Part shown: in pieces, positions 49,546 to 64,000 of the stretch
Layout: every line of letters starts with the position of its first letter
Position numbering within the stretch: the stretch's first letter is position 1
Origin: Komagataeibacter sucrofermentans DSM 15973
GTDB lineage: Bacteria; Pseudomonadota; Alphaproteobacteria; Acetobacterales; Acetobacteraceae
Length of the DNA stretch: 64,000 bases
Assembly (NCBI RefSeq): GCF_040581405.1
Contig: NZ_CP137159.1
Span: 124,001 to 188,000, forward strand
Direction: 5' to 3'
Program-made: the position numbers and the translations under genes
The notes under the pieces: model-generated
Seen by the model: only the letters and a program-made list of their open reading frames with translations
The model's database searches: none
Told to the model about the DNA's origin: nothing

Positions 49546-51024
49546 ATGATGTTTCCTGCGACTATGATGTCAGCGCGTGCGCGCACGACCCTGTATGCCG
49601 TTTCCCTTACGCTGGGCTGCCTCATTGATGGGGTTACACCTGCCAGGGCACAAATCATGGACCGCGATATCGGATCAGCCCCCAGTCTTCTGGTGTCGCG
49701 CCCTCTACCCAGGCATGTCACGCACAAGAGCTGGGTACCACCGTTTTCCCAACCGGAAGCGGTGGCACCCAACCCCGTGTCAAAATGGCTGCGCCACAGG
49801 GGAATCAACTTCCTTGTGGACAATACCAACGAATTCGCGGGTGCCATAACTCCCCCCACGCGCGGCGGGACGCCGGGGTTCAGCAATTACAAACAGGGTG
49901 CGAGCAATGCCGGGCAGTATGCCATGCAGCTTGACATAGACTGGGACAAACTGGCGGGCTGGCATGGTTTTGCCACCCATATGGTTACCATTGGCCGTTA
50001 TGGCACGACCGCCAACCGCATGTTTGGCGACTGGATGAATCATGCATCCGAAACTTATGGCGGTGGTGGCAACGTGGTCGTTCACTTCGTTTATGCCTAT
50101 GGGGAGGAAACGCTTTTTGGGGGACGGCTGGCAATTGCTGCGGGTCGTATGGCCGAAATATCGGATTTCGCGGCCAGTCCCCTGTTCTGCAATTTCCAGA
50201 ATGGCAGTTTCTGCGGACGGCCAAAGGGAATAACAGACACCAATTTCGCCGCCGGTTATCCCGCATCCACATGGGGTTTCCGCATACGCGGCCGTCCTGC
50301 CCGGTCCGTATACGTACAGACCGGCCTTTATCCAATTGAAGATGGCATCTACCAGGTGTTCCAGCACCGGACCGGGTTCAAATTCAATGCCGCGAACATC
50401 ATCGGTTATGCTGCGCCGATCGAAACCGCATGGGAACCGGTGTTCCGCCGTGGCACCCTGCCGGGGCATTACAAATTCGGCGCACAACTGTTCAGCACGC
50501 CACAGAACGACAATTACCTTGACGTGGCTGGCGCGCCCTACGCGCTGACGGGCCGCAAGCAGCGCCGGCATGGCGCGTCATGGTCTACATGGGTCATGTT
50601 CGACCAGCGGCTGCTGCATTATCATGACAAGGATTCAGGCCTGACCGCGCTTTCAGGTGCGATCTATAATGACCCGCGCACGTCACTGCGCAAATACCTT
50701 GTTTACGCAGCACTGCTCAATCGCGGTTACTTCCGCACGCGCCCGTATGACACGATGGGCTTTGCCATCACCTATACAAAAATTGCCGATGGCGTCACCC
50801 TTGCAGAACAGGACATGATTGATCGCGGCGCCAGAAGCAACCTGCCCAACCATGCAACCGGTGTTCAGCGCGATACGATCGTCATGGAAGCAAACTATGC
50901 CATACACGTCATGCCGGGCGTTATATTTACCCCCCTGTTCGAGTATTATATTCATCCCAATGCCCAGTCCAACCTGCGTAACGCCGCCCTGCTGGGCTTT
51001 AAAAGCCATATCCAACTAATGTGA
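49546..51024 (+). CDS. OprB-type carbohydrate-selective porin
   Basis: 492 residues with a signal peptide (ARTTLYAVSLTLGCLIDGVT, cleavage near ARA-Q). The outer-membrane beta barrel follows the OprB pattern: WLRHRGINFLVDNTNEFAG, GQYAMQLDIDWDKLAGWHGF, NFQNGSFCGRP, ASTWGFRIRGRPARSVYVQT, and a C-terminal strand ending GFKSHIQLM. OprB channels let sugars and sugar acids cross the outer membrane. It is in an operon with the gluconate symporter and should serve it. Acetic acid bacteria carry many such porins. Confidence 0.92.
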   Translation: MMFPATMMSARARTTLYAVSLTLGCLIDGVTPARAQIMDRDIGSAPSLLVSRPLPRHVTHKSWVPPFSQPEAVAPNPVSKWLRHRGINFLVDNTNEFAGAITPPTRGGTPGFSNYKQGASNAGQYAMQLDIDWDKLAGWHGFATHMVTIGRYGTTANRMFGDWMNHASETYGGGGNVVVHFVYAYGEETLFGGRLAIAAGRMAEISDFAASPLFCNFQNGSFCGRPKGITDTNFAAGYPASTWGFRIRGRPARSVYVQTGLYPIEDGIYQVFQHRTGFKFNAANIIGYAAPIETAWEPVFRRGTLPGHYKFGAQLFSTPQNDNYLDVAGAPYALTGRKQRRHGASWSTWVMFDQRLLHYHDKDSGLTALSGAIYNDPRTSLRKYLVYAALLNRGYFRTRPYDTMGFAITYTKIADGVTLAEQDMIDRGARSNLPNHATGVQRDTIVMEANYAIHVMPGVIFTPLFEYYIHPNAQSNLRNAALLGFKSHIQLM

Positions 51025-51036
51025 CATCGCAATGAC

Positions 51037-51098
51037 ATACGCAGCGGGAAGATTACGGATATCCGTAATCAACCGCCCATAGCCAAACCGCTGCGTAT
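51037..51098. repeat. Nested inverted repeats downstream of the porin gene
   Basis: An outer pair of perfect 11-base arms, ATACGCAGCGG (51037-51047) and CCGCTGCGTAT (51088-51098), encloses a perfect 18-base palindrome, ATTACGGATATCCGTAAT (51052-51069). It begins 13 bases after the porin stop. It could be a terminator or processing signal or the end of a small mobile element. There is no T-run after it. Confidence 0.6.
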
Positions 51099-51156
51099 AT
51101 TATGAAATATTACGGCAAAGAGAAATTGATGCAAGCCACGGAAAAGCCGTTTCTTG

Positions 51157-51237
51157 CTTTATAAAAAGCGAAACATCATCGAATGCGTGTTCGCCAGACT
51201 GAAGCAGTTCATCTCCGCTATCATCGGGCTTAACTGA
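51157..51237 (+). pseudogene. IS5-family transposase remnant
   Basis: The frame reads LYKKRNIIECVFARLKQFIS and stops at 51237. It matches the C-terminal Glu-containing helix of IS5-family transposases (pattern YKKRHLIENMFAKLKDW in the element at 5064) over about 20 residues. Everything else of the element is gone. Confidence 0.6.
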
Positions 51238-51428
51238 CGATACTTCCGGGCAGAATAATCATCAGGCCACAGGTAACCGGTTGACCTGAGCAGGTGCTTT
51301 CATCAATGCGTGATTTACAGAAAAACCGAGAGATGGCAGGCTGCCAATGCAGTGATGGAAGTAATATTTTGATTCTGTATTGTGAACTGACCATGTAGAG
51401 ACGCCTGCCTGTTTATGTTGCATAGCCG

Positions 51429-52397
51429 TTATAAGCTCCCTCGTATTCCCACATAAAGTGCATAAATGCCGTGCGATGCCGCCATGAACAGCCGGTTACG
51501 ACGGCTGCCGCCAAAACACAGATTGGCACATCGTTCAGGCAAGGGAATATGGGCGCGGGGCCTACCGTCCGGACCAAACACCATCACGCCATTCAGGTCC
51601 GGCGCACCGCCCCAGCCACACCATAGATTACCATCCGTATCACAGCGCAGGCCGTCTGCACGGGCATCGCGTGCTGGCTCTATCAGCAGGCAGCGGGATG
51701 CAATGCGTGTTCGCCGGGCATCCAGTCTGCATGCCCATATGGTATTGGGCAGGCAGCCACTATCAATAATGTAAAGAATATCGCCCGCAGGGGAAAAGCA
51801 TAGCCCGTTGGGGTTGATGAATTCCGTACTGACCTGCTGGAGCGCTCCATCACTCTCCAGGCGGTAAAGTGCGGTCGGCAGTTCCTGCTGCTCGGTCCCG
51901 CCCCCTTCATAAACGCTGAGCAGCCCGTAATCCGGATCTGTAAACCAGATCGCACCATCCGGGGCTACAACGACATCATTGGGCGAATTGAGGCGCCTGC
52001 CATCAAACCGGCTGGCCAGAATGGTAATCGTGCCATCATATTCAGTACGGGTCACCTGCCTGCTTTCATGCTCGCAGGTAATCAGGCGCCCCGCCCGGTC
52101 TCGCGTATTGCCATTGGCATGGCGTGAGGGATCGCGGAAGACAGATGTGCGCCGCGTTTCCTCCGACCAGCGCAGGATGCGGTTATTGGGGATGTCGCTC
52201 CACAGCAGGTAGCGTCCATCTCCGAACCAGACGGGGCCTTCACCCCATTCGGTGCCCCGTGCCAGACACTCCACATCGCTATGGGGCAGCAGGCAGGGCG
52301 CAAAGGACGGATCCAGGCAGACAGGCGCATAATCCAAGCGGGATAGATAAACGGGTTCCCGGGCATCACTGATACCCAGTGCGAAGGAAGGGATCAT
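51429..52397 (-). CDS. SMP-30/gluconolactonase-family lactonase
   Basis: 322 residues. Six-bladed propeller of the SMP-30 family. Metal ligands: Glu in GTEWGEGPVWFGDGRYLLWS, Asn in LNSPNDVVVAPDGAIWFTDP, and Asp in ARADGLRCDTDGNLWCGW. It hydrolyses a sugar lactone, here most likely D-galactonolactone, because it is the last gene of the galactonate operon and overlaps the MFS transporter gene by four bases. No signal peptide is evident, so cytoplasmic. Confidence 0.92.
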   Translation of the reverse strand: MIPSFALGISDAREPVYLSRLDYAPVCLDPSFAPCLLPHSDVECLARGTEWGEGPVWFGDGRYLLWSDIPNNRILRWSEETRRTSVFRDPSRHANGNTRDRAGRLITCEHESRQVTRTEYDGTITILASRFDGRRLNSPNDVVVAPDGAIWFTDPDYGLLSVYEGGGTEQQELPTALYRLESDGALQQVSTEFINPNGLCFSPAGDILYIIDSGCLPNTIWACRLDARRTRIASRCLLIEPARDARADGLRCDTDGNLWCGWGGAPDLNGVMVFGPDGRPRAHIPLPERCANLCFGGSRRNRLFMAASHGIYALYVGIRGSL

Positions 52398-53683
52398 GGG
52401 ACGATGCTTTCCTCACCTTCCATATGCCTTCCGGGCAGTACCGGTGGCTGGTAAAAAATGACAGCCGCCACCATGAACGTACCGATGACTACCGAACTTT
52501 CAATGGCTTGCGGCAGGCCCCACTGGCCACCCAGCCATGGCACCACAAAACCGCATACACCCTGGCCCAGCGCCGCCACCGCATAACTGCAGCCCATGCC
52601 CAGAGAACGGCTGGCCGAGGGAAAACGCTGCGACAGGTAATGCGGCACAAGGGCGAAAACGCTATTGCCAAACAGCCCCATGATCAGCGCGGCCCCGGCC
52701 AGGACCCACATGGAATGGGCGGAAACGAAAGGCCAGATATCCACGATCGTGATCAGGAAATATGTAATGAAGACTGTCCGCTCTCCCATCCGCGTGGCCA
52801 GCAGGCCACAGAGCGGCTTGCCGACAAGAGAACCCAGACAGTAGCAGCCCAGCAATAAAAAGACGTCGGCCGGGGTCAGGTTCTGCACCTTGCGCAGCAG
52901 GGTGGGGTAAAAGCTGTATATCGCGGCGTTCTGGAACTGGAGTACCGCCATGAACAGCAGGGCCTGTATTGCAGCACCATCCAGCCTGAGCCCCATGCGC
53001 GGGCGTGTGGCGGCCGGTGCGGGCGACATGGCGCGCAGGCGCAGCCAGACCGGGCTTTCGGCAACATCGCGGCGGATGAAGATGGCCAGAATGGCGGGAA
53101 TGACGCCAATCAGGAACATGGCCCGCCAGCCCCAGTAAGGCAGGACCACAGCCTGCACGGCAGCAGCGGCAAAGAAGCCGCATTCATACCCCGCCATCAT
53201 GATCGACGATGCCAGCGAGCGCGCGCGTGGTGGCACGCTTTCCATAAGCAGGGAAGCGGAAGCCGTCCATTCCCCTCCAAACCCGATGCCAAACAGGAAC
53301 TGCACCACCAGCATGCCCAGATAGGTCCATACCAGTGCCGTAAAACCAGAAAAGGCTGCAAACCACAGCACGCCGATCATGAATGTCAGCTTGCGGCCAT
53401 ATCGGTCCGACAGCCAGCCCCAGCTGGTATTGCCCAGAATGCGACCGACACTCTGGGCTGTAATGACCAGCCCCATGGCCGTCAGCCCCACGCCGAGGCT
53501 TTTGCCAATATCAGGCAGGCACAAAAGCAGGGCAACCTGATCGAATGCATCGAGAAACCAGCCCAGAAACGCCGCAAGGGTCACACGCCAATAGGGGCGC
53601 AGGAGCATGAAAGGGCTGAGCGTATCATCATCGTCCGGCATTGCCACAGGACCGGACATGGAGAGGGTGCGTTGATCCGACAC
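52394..53683 (-). CDS. MFS transporter of the galactonate operon
   Basis: 429 residues with 12 predicted membrane segments. MFS signatures include GWLSDRYGRKLTFMIGVLWF after helix 2 and FGIGFGGEWTASASLLMESV in helix 4, the pattern of the aromatic-acid/sialate proton symporter branch. Context, between dgoD and the lactonase, suggests D-galactonate or galactonolactone uptake, although E. coli DgoT belongs to a different MFS branch. Stop overlaps the lactonase start (ATGA). Confidence 0.9.
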   Translation of the reverse strand: MSDQRTLSMSGPVAMPDDDDTLSPFMLLRPYWRVTLAAFLGWFLDAFDQVALLLCLPDIGKSLGVGLTAMGLVITAQSVGRILGNTSWGWLSDRYGRKLTFMIGVLWFAAFSGFTALVWTYLGMLVVQFLFGIGFGGEWTASASLLMESVPPRARSLASSIMMAGYECGFFAAAAVQAVVLPYWGWRAMFLIGVIPAILAIFIRRDVAESPVWLRLRAMSPAPAATRPRMGLRLDGAAIQALLFMAVLQFQNAAIYSFYPTLLRKVQNLTPADVFLLLGCYCLGSLVGKPLCGLLATRMGERTVFITYFLITIVDIWPFVSAHSMWVLAGAALIMGLFGNSVFALVPHYLSQRFPSASRSLGMGCSYAVAALGQGVCGFVVPWLGGQWGLPQAIESSVVIGTFMVAAVIFYQPPVLPGRHMEGEESIVP

Positions 53684-53814
53684 TTCTTATCCTCCTGCAT
53701 GCCCACCAAAGTGCATGCCGCATGTTATGGATATTCGTTACCGTGGAGCGCGGTCCTTGTAATTTTACTGTTTGGCGGAACCTGCGGGCTTTATTGTCTG
53801 AAGAGACACGGGAC

Positions 53815-54963
53815 TTACCATTCCGCTACCGAACCATCTGTATGGCGCCAGACAGGATTGCGCCAGCGATGGCCTTCAGCAGCTTTTTCCCGGACGTAGT
53901 CCTCGTTGATCTCAATTCCCAGTCCGGGTCCGTCGGGAATGGCCACGGTGCCGTCAACGTAGGAAAAGACCGATGGATCAATCACATAATCCAGCAGGTC
54001 ATTACTTTTGTTGTAATGTATACCCAGGCTCTGTTCCTGAATGAAGGCATTGTAGCACAGCGCATCAAGCTGCAGGTTGGCCGCCAGTGCGATCGGCCCC
54101 AGCGGGCAGTGCAATGCGACCGCCACATCGTAGGCTTCCGCCATGGCTGCAATCTTGCGTGTTTCGGTAATACCACCGGAATGGGAAGGATCTGGCTGTA
54201 TGATGTCCACACAACCCTGTTCAAGTATTTTCTTGAAATCCCAACGCGAAAACAGCCGCTCGCCCAAGGCGATCGGGATAGAGCAATGGGCCGTTATTTC
54301 TGGCAGGGCATCGAAATTTTCACTTAATACCGGCTCTTCTATGAACATGAGGTCAAAAGGCTGCAGTTCACGCACCAGTACCTTGGCCATGGGCTTATGT
54401 ACCCGCCCATGAAAATCCACCCCGATACCAACATATGGCCCCACCGCCTCCCGGATGGCGGCGACACGAGCGATGGCGGCATCCACCTTTTCATGGCTGT
54501 CGATGAACTGCATTTCTTCCGTGCCATTCATTTTTACAGCCGTAAAGCCGCGGGCAACCATTTCCTGCGCCGCGCGGGCCGTATCGGCAGGACGATCGCC
54601 GCCAATCCATGAATAGACCCGGATACGGTCGCGGCATTTGCCGCCCAGCAACTGCCATACGGGCACGCCAAAGGCCTTGCCCTTTATATCCCATAACGCC
54701 TGGTCGATACCGGCAATGGCACTCATGTGAATGGCGCCACCGCGATAGAAACCGGCGCGGTACATGACATTCCAGTGGTCCTCGATCAGGAACGGATCCT
54801 TGCCTATCAGGTAATCGGACAGTTCCTCCACCATGGCCGCAACAGTTGCGGCGCGGCCTTCCACTACCGGCTCACCCCAGCCGGCAATGCCTTCATCCGT
54901 TTCGATCTTGAGGAACAGCCAGCGCGGCGGAACCATATAAGTATGCAGGGCCGTGATCTTCAT
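53815..54963 (-). CDS. dgoD: D-galactonate dehydratase
   Basis: 382 residues, the standard DgoD length. Enolase-superfamily ligands and acid/base residues are in order: [15 protein letters not shown] (metal Asp and a catalytic His), [15 protein letters not shown] (Glu), [15 protein letters not shown] (Glu), [20 protein letters not shown], and the catalytic His in [18 protein letters not shown]. It converts D-galactonate to 2-dehydro-3-deoxy-D-galactonate in the cytoplasm. 46 bases separate it from the upstream aldolase gene. Confidence 0.96.
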
Positions 54964-55009
54964 TGTCGTTTCCTATTATTTCTTTTTTTACTTCTGACGA
55001 TGTGCAGGT

Positions 55010-55627
55010 TCAGGGCAGGGCCTTCATAAAACGCTCTGCCGCACGGCCGACATCCCCGGCCGAATAACCGGCGCGGTACAATGCCGAACCCAGGCCAAAC
55101 CCTGCCGCCCCCGCATCCAGATAGGACTGCATGTTCTCAGGGGTAATGCCACCAACCGGAATAAAGCGGGTCCGGGGCGGGAAAACACTTTTCCAGGCGC
55201 TCAGGACCTTCGTGCCCAGCTGTTCGGCAGGAAACAGCTTCAGCGCATCGACCCCGGCATTGAGTGCGGCAAACCCTTCGGTCGGGGTCGCCACGCCGGG
55301 GGTGCAGATCATGCCGTGCTTCCGCGCTTCGGCAATGACCGCCAGATCGGCATGGGGCATGACCACCAGCCGCCCCCCATGGCGGGCGACCTCGGCCACA
55401 GCATCGGGAGATGTAACGGTGCCAGCCCCCACCAGCACCCGGTCCCCGAATGTGTTCTGCAGCAGGGCAATACTCTGATAGGGTGCGGGTGAGTTGAGGG
55501 GCACTTCGATGATGGTAAAGCCGGTGTCAACCAGCACGCGGCCGATGTCCAGCACCTCATGCGGCTGGATGCCACGCAGGATGGCGATAAGCGGACACCG
55601 GGTAAATGCCGTATCGAAGCAGGTCAT
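55010..55627 (-). CDS. dgoA: 2-dehydro-3-deoxy-6-phosphogalactonate aldolase
   Basis: 205 residues. KDPG/KDPGal aldolase family: LIAILRGIQPHEVLDIGRVL, the Glu in FTIIEVPLNSPAPYQSI, GAGTVTSPDAV, the Schiff-base Lys in DALKLFPAEQLGTKVLSAW and PVGGITPENMQSYLDAGAAG. It splits KDPGal into pyruvate and glyceraldehyde 3-phosphate. Its ATG overlaps the dgoK stop by four bases. Confidence 0.95.
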   Translation of the reverse strand: MTCFDTAFTRCPLIAILRGIQPHEVLDIGRVLVDTGFTIIEVPLNSPAPYQSIALLQNTFGDRVLVGAGTVTSPDAVAEVARHGGRLVVMPHADLAVIAEARKHGMICTPGVATPTEGFAALNAGVDALKLFPAEQLGTKVLSAWKSVFPPRTRFIPVGGITPENMQSYLDAGAAGFGLGSALYRAGYSAGDVGRAAERFMKALP

Positions 55628-56601
55628 GTGACAGCGCCTTTCTGGTCATGGAAACGGGAAGGGGCCTGATCAAGCAGGCCTGCGGCACAGGCCAGGCGGA
55701 ACAGGCCCGCAGGTGCGGTATTTCCTGCTATTGATGGTGCGGGATAACCCAGCGTCGTAAATGCCAGCTGATAGCGCTGGCACAGCGGCTGTTCCCCCAC
55801 CAGGACGGGCGTGGCCTGTGGTGTCATATCCATTGCCCCCATGCCGGCATGGATTTCCTCCCCGATCAGCAGCCCTGACAGGTAATCGGCGGTATACGCC
55901 CGCTCCAGCAGGTTCCGTAGGACAACGCTGCGGGCCGAAAACAGGCGCCCGGCAAGCGGGATGCCAGACCGCGCCGTCCGGACCCCCATAACAAAAGCCG
56001 CGTCACGCTGGCCCTCATCAGGCAGCGCGGTCGCAGGCAGGCGACCAAGGATGCTGTGCTGCATGAGCACGGCAAACAGTTCACCCGTCATGAAAGTGCA
56101 GAACTCTGTAATGGTATGCCCTTCCACCTTGGCCCATTTGGAATGTGTGCCGGGCAGGACAACGGAGCGATGACCTCCTCCATCAGTTCCCATCATGCCG
56201 ACAATCTGCGTTTCCTCGCCACGCATCACGTCGGGCAGGGGGCCGTCCTTAACCACGCCTGGCACGATATGCAGCGGGCCATGGGCCGTAGGCTGCACGC
56301 CCAGCCCATCAGCGAGTTGGAACAGGGCTGCAGGGGCAGGAAGGTAAGGCACATCCCGCCAGCCATTGATGCTGCCCACCATGCCGCAGGCCAGCATGGG
56401 CACTGTGTCTGCCAGCCACCATTGTGTCCGGATATCAGACAGAACCTGCGCAAAACCACCATCAGGCAGGTTGAGAATGCCCTGCCGGGCATAATGGGCA
56501 TGCAGGATTCTGCCCTGGGCATCCATCAACCATGCGCGTAGTGACGATGTGCCCCAGTCCAGCCCCAACAGCGCGGGTGTTGCGGGGTCAGGTAATATCA
56601 T
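55624..56601 (-). CDS. dgoK: 2-dehydro-3-deoxygalactonokinase
   Basis: 325 residues from the ATG at 56601; the frame continues upstream into the regulator gene, which is not credible as coding. The kinase start is LLGLDWGTSSLRAWLMDAQG (phosphate-binding loop) and VLPGTHSKWAKVEGHTITEF is a family landmark, followed by MTGELFAVLMQHSILGRLP. It phosphorylates 2-dehydro-3-deoxygalactonate. The gene overlaps the end of the upstream IclR gene by 14 bases, so it is translationally coupled to it. Confidence 0.94.
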   Translation of the reverse strand: MILPDPATPALLGLDWGTSSLRAWLMDAQGRILHAHYARQGILNLPDGGFAQVLSDIRTQWWLADTVPMLACGMVGSINGWRDVPYLPAPAALFQLADGLGVQPTAHGPLHIVPGVVKDGPLPDVMRGEETQIVGMMGTDGGGHRSVVLPGTHSKWAKVEGHTITEFCTFMTGELFAVLMQHSILGRLPATALPDEGQRDAAFVMGVRTARSGIPLAGRLFSARSVVLRNLLERAYTADYLSGLLIGEEIHAGMGAMDMTPQATPVLVGEQPLCQRYQLAFTTLGYPAPSIAGNTAPAGLFRLACAAGLLDQAPSRFHDQKGAVT

Positions 56602-57361
56602 GAGCCTGTCCTTTCCAGCCCATTTGCCGGGATATGATTTCCGCTGCGTCCAGAACCGTGGAAGACAGTTCTTCCATCCGCGCGCGGGGAAGATAGACCG
56701 TCGCGCTGGCAATGCTGATTGCGGCCACTATGCAGCCGCGCCCGTCACGCAAGGGAGCGGCAACGCAGTTGATGCCCGGTTCATTGTCTTCAAGATCGAA
56801 TACACAGCCGGTATCCCGGTAGGTGTGCATCCGTTCCAGCCATAGATCTGGGGACGCGCCTTTTTCTGTTGCGCGCCGGTATAACCGCCGCCATTCGGAT
56901 TTCGTGTCATCCAGCAAAAGCGCGCGTCCAACCCCGGTCAGGACGAGAGGCATGCGCTGGCCGATACGGGAGCGCATTTCCAGCCCACGCTGGCTGTTGA
57001 CCTTATCGAGATACAGGACATCATCTTCCGCCCGGATGCCGAGATGGATGGTGTCCCGCGTTTTTATACCCAGTTCACGCAGGGTGGGGCGGGCCATGAC
57101 CGTTATGGGGTTATCTTCCTGCGCACATTGTGCCAGTTCCAGAAAGCGCGGTCCCAGAAAATAAGTATCGCCCGGTACCTGCCGTAACCACCGGCCTTGG
57201 ACAAGGGCCGCCACCAGTCGCTGCGTGGTGCTGCGTGTGTAGCCTACATGAGTCACGAGGGCGGTTAGGGAACGATGGCCCTCACTGACCGCCTGTAGTA
57301 GGCAGAGCCCCCGCCCGAGGGTCTGTGTTCCATCCGGCCATTTCTGATCTCCTGGGAACAT
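56588..57361 (-). CDS. IclR-family regulator of the galactonate operon
   Basis: 257 residues. N-terminal winged helix (GLCLLQAVSEGHRSLTALVT, TRSTTQRLVAALVQGRWLRQ) and C-terminal effector domain (GIRAEDDVLYLDKVNSQRGL, MRSRIGQRMPLVLTGVGRAL, INCVAAPLRDGRGCIVAAIS). It is first in the dgo operon, where E. coli uses a GntR-type DgoR, so control here is by a different protein family. A perfect palindrome lies 79 bases upstream of its start and is the likely operator. Confidence 0.92.
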   Translation of the reverse strand: MFPGDQKWPDGTQTLGRGLCLLQAVSEGHRSLTALVTHVGYTRSTTQRLVAALVQGRWLRQVPGDTYFLGPRFLELAQCAQEDNPITVMARPTLRELGIKTRDTIHLGIRAEDDVLYLDKVNSQRGLEMRSRIGQRMPLVLTGVGRALLLDDTKSEWRRLYRRATEKGASPDLWLERMHTYRDTGCVFDLEDNEPGINCVAAPLRDGRGCIVAAISIASATVYLPRARMEELSSTVLDAAEIISRQMGWKGQAHDIT

Positions 57362-57818: not shown

Positions 57819-58625
57819 GTGGCCAAATTACGTGAGCGTGACGCTACTTTACGCGCACAGAACGCTGCAGGGCGCGATTTTTCGGAGGCGCTTGCGCGAG
57901 GCCTGAGCGTCATATCCGTGTTCAACGCAACGCGTCCGGCCCTGTCCCTGGCTGATATAGCCCGTATTATCGACCTGCCCCGCGCAACCGTGCGGCGCAC
58001 GCTGTTAACACTGGTCCATTTAGGCTATATGTCTGAAAATGGAAGGCTTTTCAGCCTTAGGCCGACTATTCTGCAGCTTGCTTCAGCCTATCTGGGCGCA
58101 GATCCCATCGCCACGATCCTGCAGCCGATCTGTGAGGAACTGGCAACCCGGCTGGAGGTAACCTGCTCGGTGGCCGTTCTGGATGGATATGATGCCGTTA
58201 TGGTGGCCTATGCCTCCCCGCGCAAGGTGCAGGCCTATGGCGTACTGGAAGGAATTGGCCTGCGGCTGCCAGCTTTCTGTAGTGCGGTCGGGGGTGTATT
58301 GCTGGCTAGCCTGTCCGAATCCGCAAGGGAAAACTTCCTAAAGGACCTGGTGCCCGAAAATGTGACCGCCCTGACAGTGACCGACAAGGCAGTGCTGCGT
58401 GCACGATGGAACACCGTGCATGAGGAAGGCTATGCCCTGATCGACCAGGAAGCCGAGATCGGGTATCGCGCCCTGGCCGTACCGGTATTCCGCCACGATG
58501 GCAGGCCGATTGCCGCGCTTAATGTGGGCATGCGGATTGAACAGGCTACGCCAGATGAGATGAAACAGCAGTATCTGCCCTGCCTACGTGATGTGACGGA
58601 AAGCCTGCGCACACAATTGCTGTAA
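57819..58625 (+). CDS. IclR-family regulator of the Rieske oxygenase cluster (PcaR/PobR-like)
   Basis: 268 residues from the GTG at 57819, with AGGAG 14 bases upstream. The helix-turn-helix (GLSVISVFNATRPALSLADI, ARIIDLPRATVRRTLLTLVH) and effector domain (EELATRLEVTCSVAVLDGYD, FCSAVGGVLLASLSESAREN, YRALAVPVFRHDGRPIAALN) are those of the branch that activates aromatic-acid genes (PcaR, PcaU, PobR, CatR). It is next to oxygenase, ferredoxin and reductase genes, so it should regulate them in response to the substrate or a product. Stop 15 bases from the converging reductase gene. Confidence 0.93.
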   Translation: MAKLRERDATLRAQNAAGRDFSEALARGLSVISVFNATRPALSLADIARIIDLPRATVRRTLLTLVHLGYMSENGRLFSLRPTILQLASAYLGADPIATILQPICEELATRLEVTCSVAVLDGYDAVMVAYASPRKVQAYGVLEGIGLRLPAFCSAVGGVLLASLSESARENFLKDLVPENVTALTVTDKAVLRARWNTVHEEGYALIDQEAEIGYRALAVPVFRHDGRPIAALNVGMRIEQATPDEMKQQYLPCLRDVTESLRTQLL

Positions 58626-58640
58626 TCTGCTGGCAGCACG

Positions 58641-59870
58641 TTACAGTAACTGACGGATGTTGAAGGCGGGATCAGCCACCCTATCGGCCGAGACCGACAT
58701 GCCGGCCGACAGTAGCTTGCGACCCAGCATGTGTTCAGCCGGCATGTTCACCGTCTCGATCGCCGCAAGCTTTCCAGCCATGTCATAATGATAATACGCT
58801 CCCTTTCCATCCCGGGGCGTGCCGCGTGTCACGCATAGCGAGCGTGTATCGGGCAGCAGGCCTACGGTCTGAAATTTCATGTCGAACTGGTCAGACCAGA
58901 ACCAGGGTACCTGATGGTAACGGGCATCTTGCCCGCATATGACCGCCGCTGCGACGCGCGCCTGATCATGAGCATTCTGCACACATTCCAGCCGTATCTG
59001 CCGCCCGGCATAGCCATTGAAATGACGCGTGCAGTCACCCGCCGCAAAGATTGCGCGATCCGCTGTCCTGCACTGTTCATCCACCAGGATTCCACCATCG
59101 CATGGCAGGCCTGCAGCCAGCGCCAGTTCCTGATTGGGCAGGACGCCCGTACCCAGCACCACCAGGGATGCAGGTATTTCCGTGCCATCCGACAGCACGA
59201 CACCACGGGCATTTCCACTGGCATCGATTGTGAACTGTCGCGCCTGAACCCCCATGCGCATGCCGACGCCATGCGCGCGGAACCGGTTCTCAACCACGGC
59301 TGCCAGTTCTGGTGATGCAGAGCGGGCCAGAAGCCGCGATGCACTGTTGACAATGGTTATGTCGCGCCCAGTTGTCATGCACCATGTTGCCGCAAGCTCC
59401 AGGCTGACATATCCCCCGCCCACCACCACGATCGGCCCGACCGTGTCCGCCACTGCATTGTGCAACCTGCGGGCATCATTCAGCGACCGCAGAGCAGACA
59501 CGTTATGTGGCAGGGCCTGCCCTGCCCATACACGCGGACGGGCACCAGTGGCGAGCATGAGCACGTCATAGCTCAAAATACTCCCATCGCTGAACCTGAC
59601 CTGCCGGGCGGCACGGTCGATTCCAATCGCTGAAAGGCCGCGTCGGAAATCGATACCAGCCGACTGAAAAAAATGCGGCCCGCGCAGGTTCAGGCTCTCA
59701 ACGCTGGCGGTTCCTTTCATGAACGCCTTTGAAAGCGGCGGTTTGTGATAGGGGAAATCTGGCTCATCACTGACAAGGGTGATCTGGCCCGTGTGGCCTT
59801 GTTCGCGCAGACTGGCCACAAACTGGACACCGGCATGCGATGCACCGATGGCCACGATCGCGCGCTCCAT
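58641..59870 (-). CDS. Ferredoxin reductase (FAD, NAD(P)H), BphA4/RhoA type
   Basis: 409 residues. Two Rossmann domains: the FAD-binding start IVAIGASHAGVQFVASLREQ, NAD-binding VVVGGGYVSLELAATWC, and GDCTRHFNGYAGRQIRLECV near the C-terminus. This is the pyridine-nucleotide-disulfide-oxidoreductase-type reductase used in three-component oxygenases (putidaredoxin, rhodocoxin or biphenyl dioxygenase reductase). It passes electrons from NADH to the ferredoxin encoded by the next gene, with which it overlaps by one base (TGATG). Confidence 0.94.
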   Translation of the reverse strand: MERAIVAIGASHAGVQFVASLREQGHTGQITLVSDEPDFPYHKPPLSKAFMKGTASVESLNLRGPHFFQSAGIDFRRGLSAIGIDRAARQVRFSDGSILSYDVLMLATGARPRVWAGQALPHNVSALRSLNDARRLHNAVADTVGPIVVVGGGYVSLELAATWCMTTGRDITIVNSASRLLARSASPELAAVVENRFRAHGVGMRMGVQARQFTIDASGNARGVVLSDGTEIPASLVVLGTGVLPNQELALAAGLPCDGGILVDEQCRTADRAIFAAGDCTRHFNGYAGRQIRLECVQNAHDQARVAAAVICGQDARYHQVPWFWSDQFDMKFQTVGLLPDTRSLCVTRGTPRDGKGAYYHYDMAGKLAAIETVNMPAEHMLGRKLLSAGMSVSADRVADPAFNIRQLL

Positions 59871-60193
59871 CAGAACTGACGATCCGGAATGCGTACCCGC
59901 AACCCGTCAAGGGCGTCGGTAACCGGAATCTGGCACGACAGGCGGCTGTTCGGCAGGCGTTCAGCCGCAACACCTTCTAGCATGTCCTCCTCGTCTTCCT
60001 GCGCGGGGGGCAGGCGGTCGACAAAAGCCTCATCAACATAAACATGGCATGTAGCGCAGGCACATGCGCCACCGCATTCGGCCTCGATTCCACGGATATC
60101 ACCCTGGATGGCCGCCTGCATGACCGTCATTGGACCACTTACATCAACTTCCGTGGTTTTATTGTCCGGCGTAACGAAAAATATCTTGGGCAT
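59870..60193 (-). CDS. Putidaredoxin-type [2Fe-2S] ferredoxin
   Basis: 107 residues. Adrenodoxin/putidaredoxin-type cluster ligands: Cys-x5-Cys-x2-Cys in AECGGACACATCHVYVDEAF and the fourth Cys in RLSCQIPVTDALDGL. It mediates electron transfer between the reductase (translationally coupled downstream) and the Rieske oxygenase encoded divergently. Other residues, such as DEEDMLEG, form the acidic partner-binding helix. Confidence 0.95.
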   Translation of the reverse strand: MPKIFFVTPDNKTTEVDVSGPMTVMQAAIQGDIRGIEAECGGACACATCHVYVDEAFVDRLPPAQEDEEDMLEGVAAERLPNSRLSCQIPVTDALDGLRVRIPDRQF

Positions 60194-60270
60194 GGGAAGT
60201 TCCGATCACAAAAAAATATTGATCCGAAGTCAAAACGACATTGCATCTTTTCTGGATTTCTTGCAACAAT

Positions 60271-60309
60271 TTGTTCGTATAACAAAACAAGGTTCGTTAG
60301 TCGAACGAA
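60271..60309. promoter_or_regulatory. Candidate IclR operators in the ferredoxin/oxygenase divergent promoter
   Basis: TTCGTT-AGTCG-AACGAA (60293-60309) is an inverted repeat with a 5-base spacer, lying 37 bases before the oxygenase start. A weaker similar site, TTGTT-CGTAT-AACAA (60271-60285), lies just to the left. The same arms and spacer recur before the TonB receptor at 63361. PcaR/PobR-type IclR proteins bind palindromes of about this size. Confidence 0.65.
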
Positions 60310-60345
60310 TCTCTGATCATAAATTGTGAAAGGCATGTTCCTGCA

Positions 60346-61674
60346 ATGCTGAGTGCCGCCCAAAATGACCTGATCACACGCATCACATCCGACAAGCCGG
60401 CCGGCAGGCTGCTTCGTTGTTACTGGCAGCCTGCCGCACTTGCCATTGAGCTGGAGGGAGATCGCGCCATCCGCCCGGTCCGGCTGCTGGGCCAGAACTT
60501 CGTGCTGTTCCGTGATGAAAACGGAAAGCTGGGCTTCCTTGACCGGGACTGCCCGCACCGCAATGCTGATTTGGCATTCGGGCGGCTGGAGGATGGCGGC
60601 CTGAGATGCCCGTTCCATGGGTGGCTTTTCGATACGGATGGCAACTGCCTGCAGACTCCCGCCGAACCCAAGGGCAGCAAGCTCTGCAAGCACATCCACC
60701 AGAAAGCTTATCCCGTTGTGGAAAAAAGCGGGATCATCTTTGTCTATCTGGGTGAAGGAGCCCCCCCGGCCTTCCCTGACATGGACTGTTTCCTTGCACC
60801 GGATTCCTATGTTTTCGCCTTCAAGGGGCTGATTGACTGCAACTGGCTGCAGGCGCTGGAAGTGGGCATGGACCCTGCGCATGCCAGCTTCCTGCACCGT
60901 TTTTTCAATGATGAAGAACAGGATACCGCATACGGTCGCCAGTTCCGGGCTACATCGGCTGACAGCAACATGCCCATGACCCGTGTGTTACGGGAATTCC
61001 CCTGCCCTGATATTGAAGTAGAACCTGCGGATTATGGCCTGCGCATCACCGCGTTGCGCTCGATCAATGCAACCAGCACCCATGTCCGTGTCACGAACGT
61101 ACTGTTTCCGCAGGCTTTTGTCATTCCACTTTCCAGTGACATGACCATCACACAGTGGCATGTGCCCATTGATGATACCAGTTGTTACTGGTACGCCATC
61201 TTCACCAGTTTCGGTCAGCCGGTTGACAAGGAAACGATGCGCGCCCAGCGCCTCAAGCTCTATACCCTGCCCGACTACCGCCCCCGTGTCGGACGGTTCA
61301 ATGATTACGGATTCGATCCGTATGAACAGGCCCACCATACCTATACCGGCATGGGCGAGGACATTAACGTGCATGACCAGTGGGCCATTGAATCACAGGG
61401 GAAAATTCAGGACCGCACGCGCGAGCACCTCGGCCAGACCGACAAGGCAATCATCGCTTTCCGCCGCATGCTGGTACGCGCCATCGAACAGGCGAACAGC
61501 GGGCAGACCCCCATGATGGTTCTCACCCCCGAGCAGGCAGCACATATACGCGGCCCCGCCACCATGGATGGCGTAGGCCCGACCAGCGAATGGGAAACAT
61601 ACTGGCGCACGGTTGACCAGCGCCGGCGTGAGGGCGCGCCATGGCATGGCGCCGATGTGGGAAAAGAGGAATAG
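60346..61674 (+). CDS. Rieske non-heme iron oxygenase alpha subunit (phthalate-dioxygenase family)
   Basis: 442 residues. The Rieske [2Fe-2S] ligands are CPHRNADLAFGR and CPFHGWLFDTDG (Cys-x-His-x17-Cys-x2-His). The mononuclear iron site is in GMDPAHASFLHRFF (DxxHxxxxH). It belongs to the alpha-only group (phthalate, vanillate, dicamba and similar oxygenases) that uses a separate electron chain, which is encoded divergently at 58641-60193. No beta-subunit gene is present. It hydroxylates or demethylates an unknown substrate. Followed after four bases by a glutamine-synthetase-like gene. Confidence 0.95.
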   Translation: MLSAAQNDLITRITSDKPAGRLLRCYWQPAALAIELEGDRAIRPVRLLGQNFVLFRDENGKLGFLDRDCPHRNADLAFGRLEDGGLRCPFHGWLFDTDGNCLQTPAEPKGSKLCKHIHQKAYPVVEKSGIIFVYLGEGAPPAFPDMDCFLAPDSYVFAFKGLIDCNWLQALEVGMDPAHASFLHRFFNDEEQDTAYGRQFRATSADSNMPMTRVLREFPCPDIEVEPADYGLRITALRSINATSTHVRVTNVLFPQAFVIPLSSDMTITQWHVPIDDTSCYWYAIFTSFGQPVDKETMRAQRLKLYTLPDYRPRVGRFNDYGFDPYEQAHHTYTGMGEDINVHDQWAIESQGKIQDRTREHLGQTDKAIIAFRRMLVRAIEQANSGQTPMMVLTPEQAAHIRGPATMDGVGPTSEWETYWRTVDQRRREGAPWHGADVGKEE

Positions 61675-61678
61675 CACC

Positions 61679-63115
61679 ATGGGATTCATTGAAAAGCATG
61701 ACCTATGGAATGCATTACAGGCCCGTCAGGCAGCCGATGTCGTACAGCGTATTGAAATGGATGACATCCAGACAGTACGTTTCTCTTTTGCCGACCAGCA
61801 CGGTATCCTGCGTGGCAAGGCAGTCGTCGCCGATGAAGTAAAAAGCGCCTTTTCCTCAGGTATTTCCATATCTTCATCACTGCTGATGAAAGATACGTCA
61901 CACCGGACCGTCATCCCCATATTTGAATCGGGCGACCAGTCGGACATGCCCGAAATGCGTGGTTCGGCCGACATGATCATGGTGCCGGATCCATCAACAT
62001 TCAAAATACTGCCCTGGGCGGAACATACGGGCTGGGTTCTGTGCGATCTGTATTTTCGTGACGGGCGCAAAGTACCACTTTCCACCCGCCACATTTTCCA
62101 GAACATGCTCGAAAAGCTCGATACGGCTGGCTACAGCTTCATGAGTGGACTGGAAGTTGAATTCCATCTCATGAAACTGACTGACCCCCGCCTTGCGCTA
62201 TCAGATGCCGGGCAGCCGGGCACGCCGCCTGATGTCGAATTGCTGCACAAGGGCTACAATTACCTGACGGAACTGTACTATGACCGGCTGGATCCCTTTT
62301 TTGAAATTCTCAGAAAGCACGTCCAGGCACTGGGGCTGGGGCTTCGTGGCATGGAGGTGGAGTTCGGTCCCAGCCAGGTCGAGTTCGTTTTCAATGCCGC
62401 CTGTGGCCTGAAGCCCGCAGATGACATGGTACTGTTTCGCAGTGCAGTCAAACAGATTGCGCAGCGGCATGGCTACCATGCCAGCTTCATGTGCCGCCCA
62501 CGCCTTCCCCATGTCATGTCCAGTGGCTGGCACCTGCACCAGTCGCTCTGCGATTCCACGGGGCAGCACAACCTGTTCATGGCACAACGCGAAGGCGCGC
62601 TCCTGTCGGATATCGGCATGCACTGGCTGGGCGGATTGCTGGATAATGCCTTACCTGCCACGGCTTTTTCAACACCCACCATAAACGGCTACAAACGCTA
62701 CCGTCCCTTTTCCCTTGCCCCAGACCGCGCCATATGGGGAGCGGACAACAGAGGGGTGATGCTGCGCGTACTGGGGGAGATGGGTGACAGGGCAACACGG
62801 ATTGAAAACCGTGTAGGGGAACCGGCAGCCAACCCGTATCTGTATCTTGCATCACAGATTGCATGCGGCATGGATGGCATACACAGGCGCAGCACGCCCG
62901 GCCCGTCGGCTGACACCCCTTATTCGACAGATGCCCCCTTCCTGCCCGCTACACTTGAAGAAGCCGTTAGTGCACTGGAACAGTCTGAACTGTTCAACCA
63001 GGCATTTGGAACGGATTTTGTAAGGTATTTCATAAAAATAAAGAAAGCCGAAATCAAGCGCTACAACCTGGAGGTTTCGGAATGGGAACACAGGGAATAT
63101 TTCGATATGTTCTGA
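61679..63115 (+). CDS. Glutamine-synthetase-like gamma-glutamyl ligase
   Basis: 478 residues from the ATG at 61679 (AGAGGAA upstream). GS fold: the beta-grasp DQHGILRGKAVVADEVKSAF, metal-binding Glu in SGLEVEFHL, Glu pair in GMEVEFGPSQVEFVFNA, His in VMSSGWHLHQSLCDSTG, GYKRYRPFSLAPDRAIWGAD and the Arg/Glu ATP region RIENRVGEPAANPYLYLASQ. It resembles the GS-like enzymes that ligate glutamate to amines (PuuA, gamma-glutamylanilide synthase), not true GlnA: it lacks the usual GlnA start and the tail is divergent. Tight coupling to a Rieske oxygenase suggests substrate activation as a gamma-glutamyl amide. Confidence 0.9.
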   Translation: MGFIEKHDLWNALQARQAADVVQRIEMDDIQTVRFSFADQHGILRGKAVVADEVKSAFSSGISISSSLLMKDTSHRTVIPIFESGDQSDMPEMRGSADMIMVPDPSTFKILPWAEHTGWVLCDLYFRDGRKVPLSTRHIFQNMLEKLDTAGYSFMSGLEVEFHLMKLTDPRLALSDAGQPGTPPDVELLHKGYNYLTELYYDRLDPFFEILRKHVQALGLGLRGMEVEFGPSQVEFVFNAACGLKPADDMVLFRSAVKQIAQRHGYHASFMCRPRLPHVMSSGWHLHQSLCDSTGQHNLFMAQREGALLSDIGMHWLGGLLDNALPATAFSTPTINGYKRYRPFSLAPDRAIWGADNRGVMLRVLGEMGDRATRIENRVGEPAANPYLYLASQIACGMDGIHRRSTPGPSADTPYSTDAPFLPATLEEAVSALEQSELFNQAFGTDFVRYFIKIKKAEIKRYNLEVSEWEHREYFDMF

Positions 63116-63281
63116 TTTCTTGCTCTGACATAAAAAAATATGCCGCGGAACAGATTGCTCCTGTGCATCAGGTAACTGCATGTAAATTTTATATTTTTTA
63201 CGCTGAAATATTGTTTCTTTATCGCATCAATATTCATTGACTCATTACGATCAATAAACGATAATATTTATTAGAAAAACG

Positions 63282-63298
63282 TTCGTTAATTGAACGAA
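63282..63298. promoter_or_regulatory. Second TTCGTT-N5-AACGAA operator, before the TonB receptor
   Basis: TTCGTT-AATTG-AACGAA repeats the arms and spacer of the site at 60293. It lies 62 bases before the receptor start in AT-rich DNA. This ties the receptor to the oxygenase regulon. Confidence 0.65.
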
Positions 63299-63360
63299 GT
63301 CCCGGTCAAATCAGATGCACTTTTCTGTCGCAGCACACACGGATGTGCCGAAGGAGAGAT

Positions 63361-64000
63361 ATGGATATGGCTTACGCTGGCACGACAAAACGATGGCTTT
63401 ATGTATCGACGTCCTCCCTCCTGCTTGCATGGGGCGCCGATAGCCACACGGCATATGCGCAGAATGCGCCCCCACGCGCCCGCTCGGCGCACGGTAATAT
63501 AAGGCCCCATGCCGCACGCACGGCCCCCACGCTCAAACCTTCCGCCCCCGCAGTGGCTGCCGCGCCGGAAAAACTGAGTGTATCGGTCGCGCGCATGCGC
63601 CATAACGGGCAGGACGTCGCAGCCTCTACTACTTATGTTTCCCAACAGGAACTACGAGAACGTAATATAACCAATACCGCCGAACTGGGTCGTATTGCCC
63701 CCGGTGTCATGATTTCTCAAATGGGGCAGGCCTCTACATCAACGGTCATTACCATTCGCGGCGTTGCCAATCTCGACTTTTCAGACCATCAGGAATCGCC
63801 CAACACGGTTTATTCCGACGGAGCCTATATCAGTTTTCCCGGCGCGATAGGTGGCGCCATGTTTGACCTTGATCGCGTGGAAATCGAGCGTGGCCCCCAG
63901 GGCACGACTGGCGGGCGCAACACGACCGGCGGTTCGATCAGACTTGTTTCAGCCAAACCGACAGACAAACTGACTGGGTATGCCCAGGCATCCTATGGCA
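63361..64000 (+). CDS. TonB-dependent receptor, 5' part (runs off the window)
   Basis: An open frame of 213 codons from the ATG at 63361 (GGAG just before) to the window end. Signal peptide (WLYVSTSSLLLAWGADSHTA, cleavage near YAQ-N), Pro/Ala-rich linker, then a plug domain: ELGRIAPGVMISQMGQASTS, ITIRGVANLDFSDHQESPNT, DLDRVEIERGPQGTTGGRNT and GGSIRLVSAKPTDKLTGYA. The ERGPQGT plug motif is the family hallmark. The receptor probably brings in the substrate of the oxygenase cluster and shares its operator. Confidence 0.92.
   Translation, partial: MDMAYAGTTKRWLYVSTSSLLLAWGADSHTAYAQNAPPRARSAHGNIRPHAARTAPTLKPSAPAVAAAPEKLSVSVARMRHNGQDVAASTTYVSQQELRERNITNTAELGRIAPGVMISQMGQASTSTVITIRGVANLDFSDHQESPNTVYSDGAYISFPGAIGGAMFDLDRVEIERGPQGTTGGRNTTGGSIRLVSAKPTDKLTGYAQASYG

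Follow-up and report, generated by a model that had tools for sequence, protein, structure and literature searches.

Known systems and the locus

In the systems for aniline and naphthylamine (AtdA, TdnQ/DcaQ, NpaA1), a ligase that resembles glutamine synthetase (GS) acts first and a Rieske oxygenase acts second, as described in the accessible parts of PMC11335346 and PMC4539516; these systems are further marked by an oxygenase beta subunit and by a gene for a glutamine amidotransferase (GATase). The sad operon of Hydrogenophaga PBC, which serves 4-aminobenzenesulfonate, comprises a dioxygenase (sadA), a glutamine synthetase (sadB) and a ferredoxin (sadC), with SadD also being involved; the accessible part of PMC5632844 lists no second oxygenase subunit and leaves the subunit make-up unstated. 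Here, we describe a locus that occupies positions 57819-64000 of a 64,000-nucleotide stretch, referred to as “the window”, from the acetic acid bacterium Komagataeibacter sucrofermentans DSM 15973 (contig NZ_CP137159.1, positions 124,001 to 188,000). The locus contains an enzyme pair of a known kind, i.e. the kind that carries out the ligase-first Rieske oxidation of acid-substituted arylamines, while its arrangement as a regulon in acetic acid bacteria is unusual. On comparison of its sequences, we consider it likely that the locus is a regulon that serves an aromatic amine whose ring bears an acid group; the best candidate is 4-aminobenzoate. The amine would be glutamylated and then oxidised by the Rieske oxygenase, under the control of one palindrome.

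The component list of the locus is also that of the pab operon of Paraburkholderia terrae KU-15, as the latter is reportedly constituted: although our literature search did not recover a description of it, a PabA ligase, the PabB1-B3 oxygenase system and a PabC hydrolase are said to convert 4-aminobenzoate, via gamma-glutamyl-4-carboxyanilide, into protocatechuate. In contrast with that reported arrangement, the window has no hydrolase gene, its regulatory neighbour is of the IclR type and not of the GntR or LysR type, and a TonB-dependent receptor is present. The likeness to sad, drawn from its description, lies in the dioxygenase, the GS and the ferredoxin, and in a substrate that bears its amine on C4 and its acid group on C1; the sad substrate is, however, a sulfonate, and no TonB receptor is mentioned in the accessible account of that operon. 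Of the features of the Sad and Pab types, the window presents a linked GS-like ligase and a ferredoxin and a reductase of its own; as is reported for Pab, no beta subunit gene is in sight, and the amine loop of the ligase has the basic residues described below. The linked gamma-glutamyl hydrolase that Pab reportedly has is absent up to the end of the contig. The marks of the aniline dioxygenase (AtdA) are not seen, as neither a beta subunit gene nor a GATase gene was found and position 75 of the ligase is a lysine and not a hydrophobic residue. The features of the locus are as follows:

57819..58625, plus strand: IclR-type regulator, PcaR/PcaU/PobR-like (Pfam IclR_C and HTH_IclR)
58641..59870, minus strand: NAD(P)H:ferredoxin reductase (Pyr_redox_2 and Reductase_C)
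59870..60193, minus strand: 2Fe-2S ferredoxin (Pfam Fer2), overlapping the start of the reductase gene by one base
60292..60306, no strand: palindrome GTTCGTTAGTCGAAC, located between the divergent genes for the ferredoxin and the oxygenase and proposed as the operator of the IclR protein
60346..61674, plus strand: Rieske oxygenase alpha subunit, LigXa/phthalate type (Pfam Rieske and LigXa_C; PDB 9ina, E 1.9e-61)
61679..63115, plus strand: putative GS-like gamma-glutamyl-arylamine ligase (PDB 8wwu, NpaA1, E 6.4e-131; loop residues; tree)
63237..63265, plus strand: sigma-70-like promoter TTGACT-17-GATAAT before the receptor gene, a consensus match only and a weak one (3 such matches in the region, with 3.8 expected)
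63281..63295, no strand: the palindrome a second time, as GTTCGTTAATTGAAC, upstream of the receptor gene
63343..64000, plus strand: TonB-dependent receptor, first 219 of 791 amino acids (Pfam Plug), continuing past the window

An earlier note, made from the letters of the window, had named these six genes (IclR regulator, ferredoxin reductase, ferredoxin, Rieske oxygenase, GS-like ligase and TonB receptor), and the analysis of open reading frames with Pfam and NCBIfam confirms their places, order and strands, as well as the four bases that separate the oxygenase stop from the ligase start. The minus-strand ferredoxin and reductase genes and the plus-strand oxygenase, ligase and receptor genes diverge from a gap of 152 bases, and the IclR gene converges on the reductase gene. 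The same note had described the oxygenase as alpha-only, with no GATase gene in view, and had proposed to look past position 64000 for a gamma-glutamyl hydrolase. No beta subunit gene is seen on either side of the oxygenase gene and, among the open reading frames of at least 150 amino acids compared with Pfam from the locus to the contig end, no hydrolase, GATase or beta subunit gene is seen either, which upholds the former description and leaves the extension without its hydrolase.

The ligase and its amine loop

The best solved relative of the ligase is the 1-naphthylamine gamma-glutamyl ligase NpaA1 (8wwu), at 440 bits, followed by the next match at 184 bits; ligases of the aniline and naphthylamine systems are 43-48% identical to that of the window. 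In a tree of 45 sequences (36 of the 133 ligase rows and 9 references), a branch (94/97; 92% of 200 bootstrap trees) has the 31 sampled oxygenase-linked ligases on one of its sides; the ligases of the aniline/naphthylamine type are separate from them, and GlnA is distant. PuuA and IpuC likewise fall outside this side, on long branches that make their placement unsure, and the “AtdA-type” label of the Delftia pLME1 reference is our own. The comparison with PuuA, IpuC, GlnA and the aniline-type enzymes, which the earlier note had suggested, therefore places the ligase with the gamma-glutamyl-arylamine ligases and not with GlnA.

In NpaA1, the amine packs against a loop (V68-M81) that the adjacent subunit contributes and in which F75 is one of the residues that form a tunnel (PMC11335346, accessible part). 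The residue at position 75 is a lysine in all 128 oxygenase-linked ligases (124 distinct), even in those of Nitratireductor, Pseudooceanicola and Palleronia, which have 47-49% identity and are located near the same type of oxygenase, and the position of S80 is occupied by an arginine or a lysine in 127 of the 128. This lysine occurs in none of the 5 oxygenase-less homologues and in none of the 9 references (two GlnA sequences are gapped there), with phenylalanine or valine being found in the references of the aniline/naphthylamine type; positions 86 and 235 give no separation from the aniline-type ligases. In NpaA1, the amino group is held by E232 and E234; both positions have a glutamate in 128/128 of the oxygenase-linked ligases. 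The conserved basic residues of the loop, together with the retained glutamates, suggest an arylamine with a ring acid group as the substrate, and we read the pocket as a site for such a compound; the basic amine-loop residues are a feature defined in this analysis and not a published criterion.

The five homologues that lack a linked oxygenase, from other Acetobacteraceae (L172-L176, 42-49% identical), have phenylalanine or methionine at position 75 and tryptophan at position 235. Three of them group with a ligase from a Streptomyces tendae plasmid that adjoins a carbon-nitrogen hydrolase gene and a GATase gene.

The oxygenase

Isophthalate dioxygenase (9ina) is the best solved relative of the oxygenase. 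In that enzyme, a trimer of one subunit type, R234 binds the C1 carboxylate and H257 the second carboxylate, while C3-C4 face the iron (PMC12445078, accessible part). The residue survey covered 118 distinct sequences of 122 oxygenase rows: the equivalent of R234 (R248 in the oxygenase of the window) is an arginine in 118/118, the equivalent of H257 is a glutamine in 118/118, and conservation extends to the positions of D174, H177 and H182. The window oxygenase thus shares with isophthalate dioxygenase the single type of subunit, the carboxylate-binding arginine and these three positions, and differs from it in the glutamine at the position of H257 and in being paired with a ligase, a step that isophthalate dioxygenase does not have. 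Because the arginine is kept and the histidine is replaced, the site appears to expect one ring carboxylate. By analogy, the attack would take place at C3-C4, with C4 bearing the glutamylamide of 4-aminobenzoate, and the product would be protocatechuate.

Conservation of the oxygenase-ligase pair

A scan of genome contigs with the ligase gave 420 loci, of which the best 80, mostly from Bradyrhizobium, were kept. The oxygenase is present in 80/80: it is located directly upstream on the same strand in 78, is separated by 1.8 kb in one and is cut by the contig end in one. At E 1e-110 or better, the ligase is found in 38 of 397 Acetobacteraceae genomes; in the 37 Acetobacteraceae loci other than the window, two of which repeat loci among the best 80, the oxygenase accompanies it in 32 (directly upstream in 31), and the five loci that lack it hold the five most distant ligases (42-49% identical). 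The pairing of oxygenase and ligase is not due to chance. Of the best 80 loci, 70 have a linked IclR gene, and in 7 of the other 10 the contig stops close to the oxygenase; what is conserved as a core is therefore the set IclR-oxygenase-ligase.

The ferredoxin and the reductase are linked less often (6/80 best loci, 3/37 Acetobacteraceae loci, 9/13 plasmid loci), and a TonB receptor that resembles one of three queries is located near the pair in 4/80 and 4/37. When the five-gene neighbourhood is sought in other genomes, as had been advised, the oxygenase and the ligase thus hold together throughout the best loci, while the full set is rarer than the pair. The notion that the two enzymes might be linked by chance in this strain only finds no support in these counts.

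The system is widespread, being carried by Bradyrhizobium, Methylobacterium, Acetobacteraceae and Burkholderiales. Within Komagataeibacter, only 3 of 19 genomes have the ligase, our own included, and the ligase of the window is 73% identical to that of Gluconacetobacter tumulicola, in comparison with 65-66% identity to the ligases of its own genus; for this reason, it looks horizontally acquired.

Some neighbourhoods contain further genes. In Bradyrhizobium, neighbours resemble, by eye, Box-pathway and benzoate-CoA ligase genes. In Acetobacter papayae (L006:2704-15124), the pair is accompanied by carboxylesterase, secretory-lipase and amidohydrolase genes (Pfam) and by another TonB receptor gene; look-alikes of this cluster occur in K. 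intermedius (L007:2715-17396), along with a second GS-like gene of about 30% identity (by eye, tblastn). A small protein annotated as 5-carboxymethyl-2-hydroxymuconate isomerase is encoded directly after the ligase in Novosphingobium (N.) resinovorum and Pseudooceanicola (L089:13572-13913, L091:13368-13706), and an unnamed small protein of similar size follows the ligase in Palleronia.

The palindrome, the regulator and the receptor

The regulator scores 256.3 bits (E 2.5e-76) against TIGR02431 (PcaR/PcaU/PobR), which is below the curated cut-off of 284.75. We searched the 300 bases upstream of the oxygenase gene for the pattern GTTCG-N5-CGAAC, allowing up to one mismatch, in 114 of 132 loci (dropped were four duplicates and the loci with no strong oxygenase match, with an oxygenase on the opposite strand or with fewer than 250 bases upstream). 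The palindrome is present in 95/114, while 40 shuffled palindromes occur at 0.5% per region. It is found in 95 of the 99 upstream regions with a linked IclR gene and in 0 of the 15 without one; the consensus was drawn from some of the counted sequences, which makes the count partly circular, but not its split by IclR presence. The positive loci, many of which are related Bradyrhizobium and not independent, also include Acetobacteraceae, Methylobacterium, Chelatococcus and Afipia. As the palindrome covaries with the IclR gene across loci, we propose that it is the operator.

In the window, 3 matches with at most one mismatch are found, where shuffles average 0.63 and 5 of 100 shuffles reach 3. 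Exact matches to GTTCGYTNNNYGAAC number three in the 3.44 Mb genome: one before the oxygenase, one before the receptor and one on contig C1, apparently inside the reading frame of another TonB receptor. A one-mismatch search of the whole genome was uninformative, with 23 matches as opposed to 34 for the reversed control pattern. In G. tumulicola, GTTCTTTAATCGAAC, with one mismatch, precedes the orthologous receptor gene; the clusters of G. sacchari, A. papayae and K. intermedius have other TonB receptor genes, and no palindrome was found upstream of these. Sharing the palindrome, the receptor gene of the window and that of its nearest relative appear to belong to the regulon, in agreement with the earlier assignment of the receptor to the same system; the receptor may, as then proposed, take up the amine itself.

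The receptor gene extends 1,718 bases beyond the window (L003:7343-9718). The protein scores 128.2 bits against the siderophore receptor model TIGR01783, below the cut-off of 223.5; its solved relatives match best in and around the plug, from which the ligand cannot be read. The genome holds 22 TonB plug domains.

Surroundings of the locus

The best NCBIfam match of the reductase is AndAa, at 319.5 bits, which is below the cut-off of 650. The contig ends 9.4 kb beyond the window. Past the receptor, the open reading frames of at least 150 amino acids with Pfam matches encode an IS3-type transposase, a HipA-like protein, an aminotransferase and a small P-loop ATPase; the transposase gene (rve, HTH_21; L003:9875-10753) directly follows the receptor gene and, with the contig end nearby, fits a horizontal gain of the locus.

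A separate sugar-acid cluster is located at 49546-57361 of the window, with genes for an OprB porin, an SMP-30/gluconolactonase, an MFS transporter, a mandelate-racemase-type dehydratase, a KDPG-type aldolase, a 2-keto-3-deoxy-galactonokinase and a second IclR protein; it looks like a cluster for D-galactonate use. We exclude these genes, which lie upstream of 57.4 kb, from the system, given that they have an IclR gene of their own and that no copy of the palindrome was found there.

Genome context of the relatives

The gene for PnbB (PF16155, 4-hydroxylaminobenzoate lyase) is located near the pair in 6 of 13 plasmid loci, namely those of Caballeronia insecticola, P. phymatum, Caballeronia NK8, C. 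necator, C. pinatubonensis and Methylobacterium nodulans, as confirmed by Pfam in the first and the last of these; it is not near the pair in Polaromonas or in the other six. A nitroreductase gene is near the pair in 5/13, a linked C26 gamma-glutamyl hydrolase gene is found in 4/13, and 5 of 6 betaproteobacterial plasmid relatives have a C26 or GATase hydrolase gene in the cluster. The run in C. insecticola reads PnbB, aromatic-acid MFS transporter, LysR, C26 hydrolase, reductase, ferredoxin, ligase, oxygenase, GntR and nitroreductase, the last gene being annotated as two pieces (L092:8666-9354). In P. terrae KU-15, pnbB, pnbR and pnbA have the locus tags 35480, 35500 and 35570, i.e. places 1, 3 and 10 of a ten-gene run (PMC9302171), a spacing that equals the C. 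insecticola gene order in which the oxygenase-ligase pair is held. PcaHG is encoded in the cluster of Afipia, the only such case among the best 80 loci, and pcaCHGD is located near the pair in Palleronia.

Proposed route and alternative readings

The route combines what was computed (families, gene order, conservation, residues and the covariation of palindrome and regulator) with the substrate, regiochemistry, product, binding and direction of regulation that we infer. The ligase, with ATP, would join the gamma-carboxyl group of glutamate to the aryl amine, yielding gamma-glutamyl-4-carboxyanilide, while the lysine and the arginine of its amine loop bind the carboxylate of the ring. Supplied from NAD(P)H by way of the reductase and the ferredoxin, the Rieske oxygenase would then dioxygenate C3-C4 while R248 grips the carboxylate; the product would collapse to protocatechuate, releasing the nitrogen as glutamine (or as glutamate and ammonia). 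Through the one palindrome, the PcaR/PobR-like IclR protein would control the promoter of the receptor gene and the divergent promoters of the ferredoxin and oxygenase genes. C26 hydrolase and GGT-family proteins encoded elsewhere in the genome (all C26 matches are on contig C1, which is not the contig of the locus) could remove glutamate from stray conjugates. The earlier proposal of an amine that is glutamylated and then oxidised is thus supported by the placement of the ligase among the gamma-glutamyl-arylamine ligases and by its conserved link with the oxygenase, while the amine, then held to be unknown, has a best candidate in 4-aminobenzoate; that the design is new is not supported, given the published sad operon (accessible part of PMC5632844) and the hydrolase genes of the plasmid relatives.

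Several observations weigh against this reading. None of the best 80 loci and none of the 37 Acetobacteraceae loci has a gene for PnbB, a nitroreductase or a C26 hydrolase in the vicinity of the pair, so that the pnb link rests on plasmids of other genera; PnbB had no match in our genome either, in a search whose controls also gave none. PcaH is near the pair in just 1/80, and the literature found reports no activity for any sequence of this ligase/oxygenase clade. Our genome has no match to the intradiol dioxygenase family PF00775 (4 of 14 control genomes match), and its sole LigB-family match is DOPA-dioxygenase-like; in a survey of 12 genomes, with K. intermedius and K. oboediens each entered twice, intradiol enzymes are present in 5/5 genomes from outside the acetic acid bacteria but, of the 7 entries from acetic acid bacteria, 6 (4 of the 5 species) gave none. 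Protocatechuate may therefore lead no further, in which case the system could have another product or another purpose. The cluster has no inner-membrane transporter gene. A pattern scan marks both palindromes as terminator-like on the minus strand; we do not read them as terminators, as neither lies behind a minus-strand gene. Finally, the sulfanilate degrader N. resinovorum SA1 carries the same pair, which makes a sulfonate substrate possible.

The same chemistry might indeed serve 4-aminobenzenesulfonate (sulfanilate) as the physiological substrate, with 4-sulfocatechol as the product, as for the published sadA/sadB/sadC operon (accessible part of PMC5632844): plasmid pSA3 of strain SA1 has the pair, a putative sulfanilate enzyme in that strain, with a maleylacetate reductase gene nearby. 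We consider this unlikely for the window, since loop positions 79 and 81 are asparagine in the SA1 ligase but histidine and threonine in the window ligase, as in six PnbB-linked ligases, and since the accessible text of PMC5632844 itself expects a natural look-alike to be the original substrate. Slightly less improbable, though still doubtful, is another acid-bearing arylamine, such as 3-aminobenzoate, 4-aminosalicylate, an aminophthalate or an aminobenzoate conjugate: the conserved residues ask only for an aryl amine with an anionic group, and a larger or esterified substrate is hinted at by the TonB receptor and by the A. papayae genes for an esterase, a lipase and an amidohydrolase, but the frequency of PnbB among the plasmid loci points to 4-aminobenzoate, and the PcaR/PobR-like regulator and the pca genes of Afipia and Palleronia fit protocatechuate.

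A change of regiochemistry, by which the oxygenase would hydroxylate the ipso position and remove the carboxylate, giving gamma-glutamyl-4-hydroxyanilide and then 4-aminophenol, seems very unlikely. The oxygenase matches both LigXa_C and VanA_C, and related oxygenases of these types are generally known to catalyse reactions besides ring dioxygenation; by homology, however, the arginine would hold the ring carboxylate away from the attacked C3-C4, and pca genes adjoin the pair in two genera. That the ligase is an ordinary GlnA acting on ammonia, in an accidental neighbourhood, has next to no probability: Pfam does give Gln-synt_C as its only family, but the genome has its own GlnA elsewhere, with 27% identity to the ligase, and both GlnA identity and chance linkage are rejected by this identity, the tree and the linkage in 80/80.

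Implications for acetic acid bacteria

As no intradiol ring-cleaving enzyme was found, the benefit to this acetic acid bacterium is probably the acquisition of nitrogen or the removal of the amine, with protocatechuate being left or excreted; the expected product is probably not a carbon source by the intradiol route. The system may serve nitrogen gain (the net conversion of amine and glutamate to glutamine), amine removal or a use of the catechol itself. The hydrolytic genes of the A. papayae cluster hint at an amine ester or amide as food. A more speculative possibility, to which we give only a small chance, is that acetic acid bacteria have found a new use for the pair, in which one IclR operator would govern amine oxidation along with a TonB receptor that imports a 4-aminobenzoate conjugate (a plant glucose ester or a folate breakdown product) or an iron complex of the pathway catechol, in the service of nitrogen or iron supply and not of carbon catabolism.

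For the question, left open in the accessible part of PMC5632844, of the first natural substrate of 4-aminobenzenesulfonate dioxygenase, 4-aminobenzoate, a folate precursor, is offered as an answer. With a TonB receptor in its regulon and no intradiol enzyme found, the acetic-acid-bacterial version poses a testable physiological question. By a single lysine of the amine loop, the system can be told from the ligases of the aniline type that were compared; this would allow many genes to be named, where the plasmid records that carry gene names give only “glutamine synthetase family protein” beside “aromatic ring-hydroxylating dioxygenase”.

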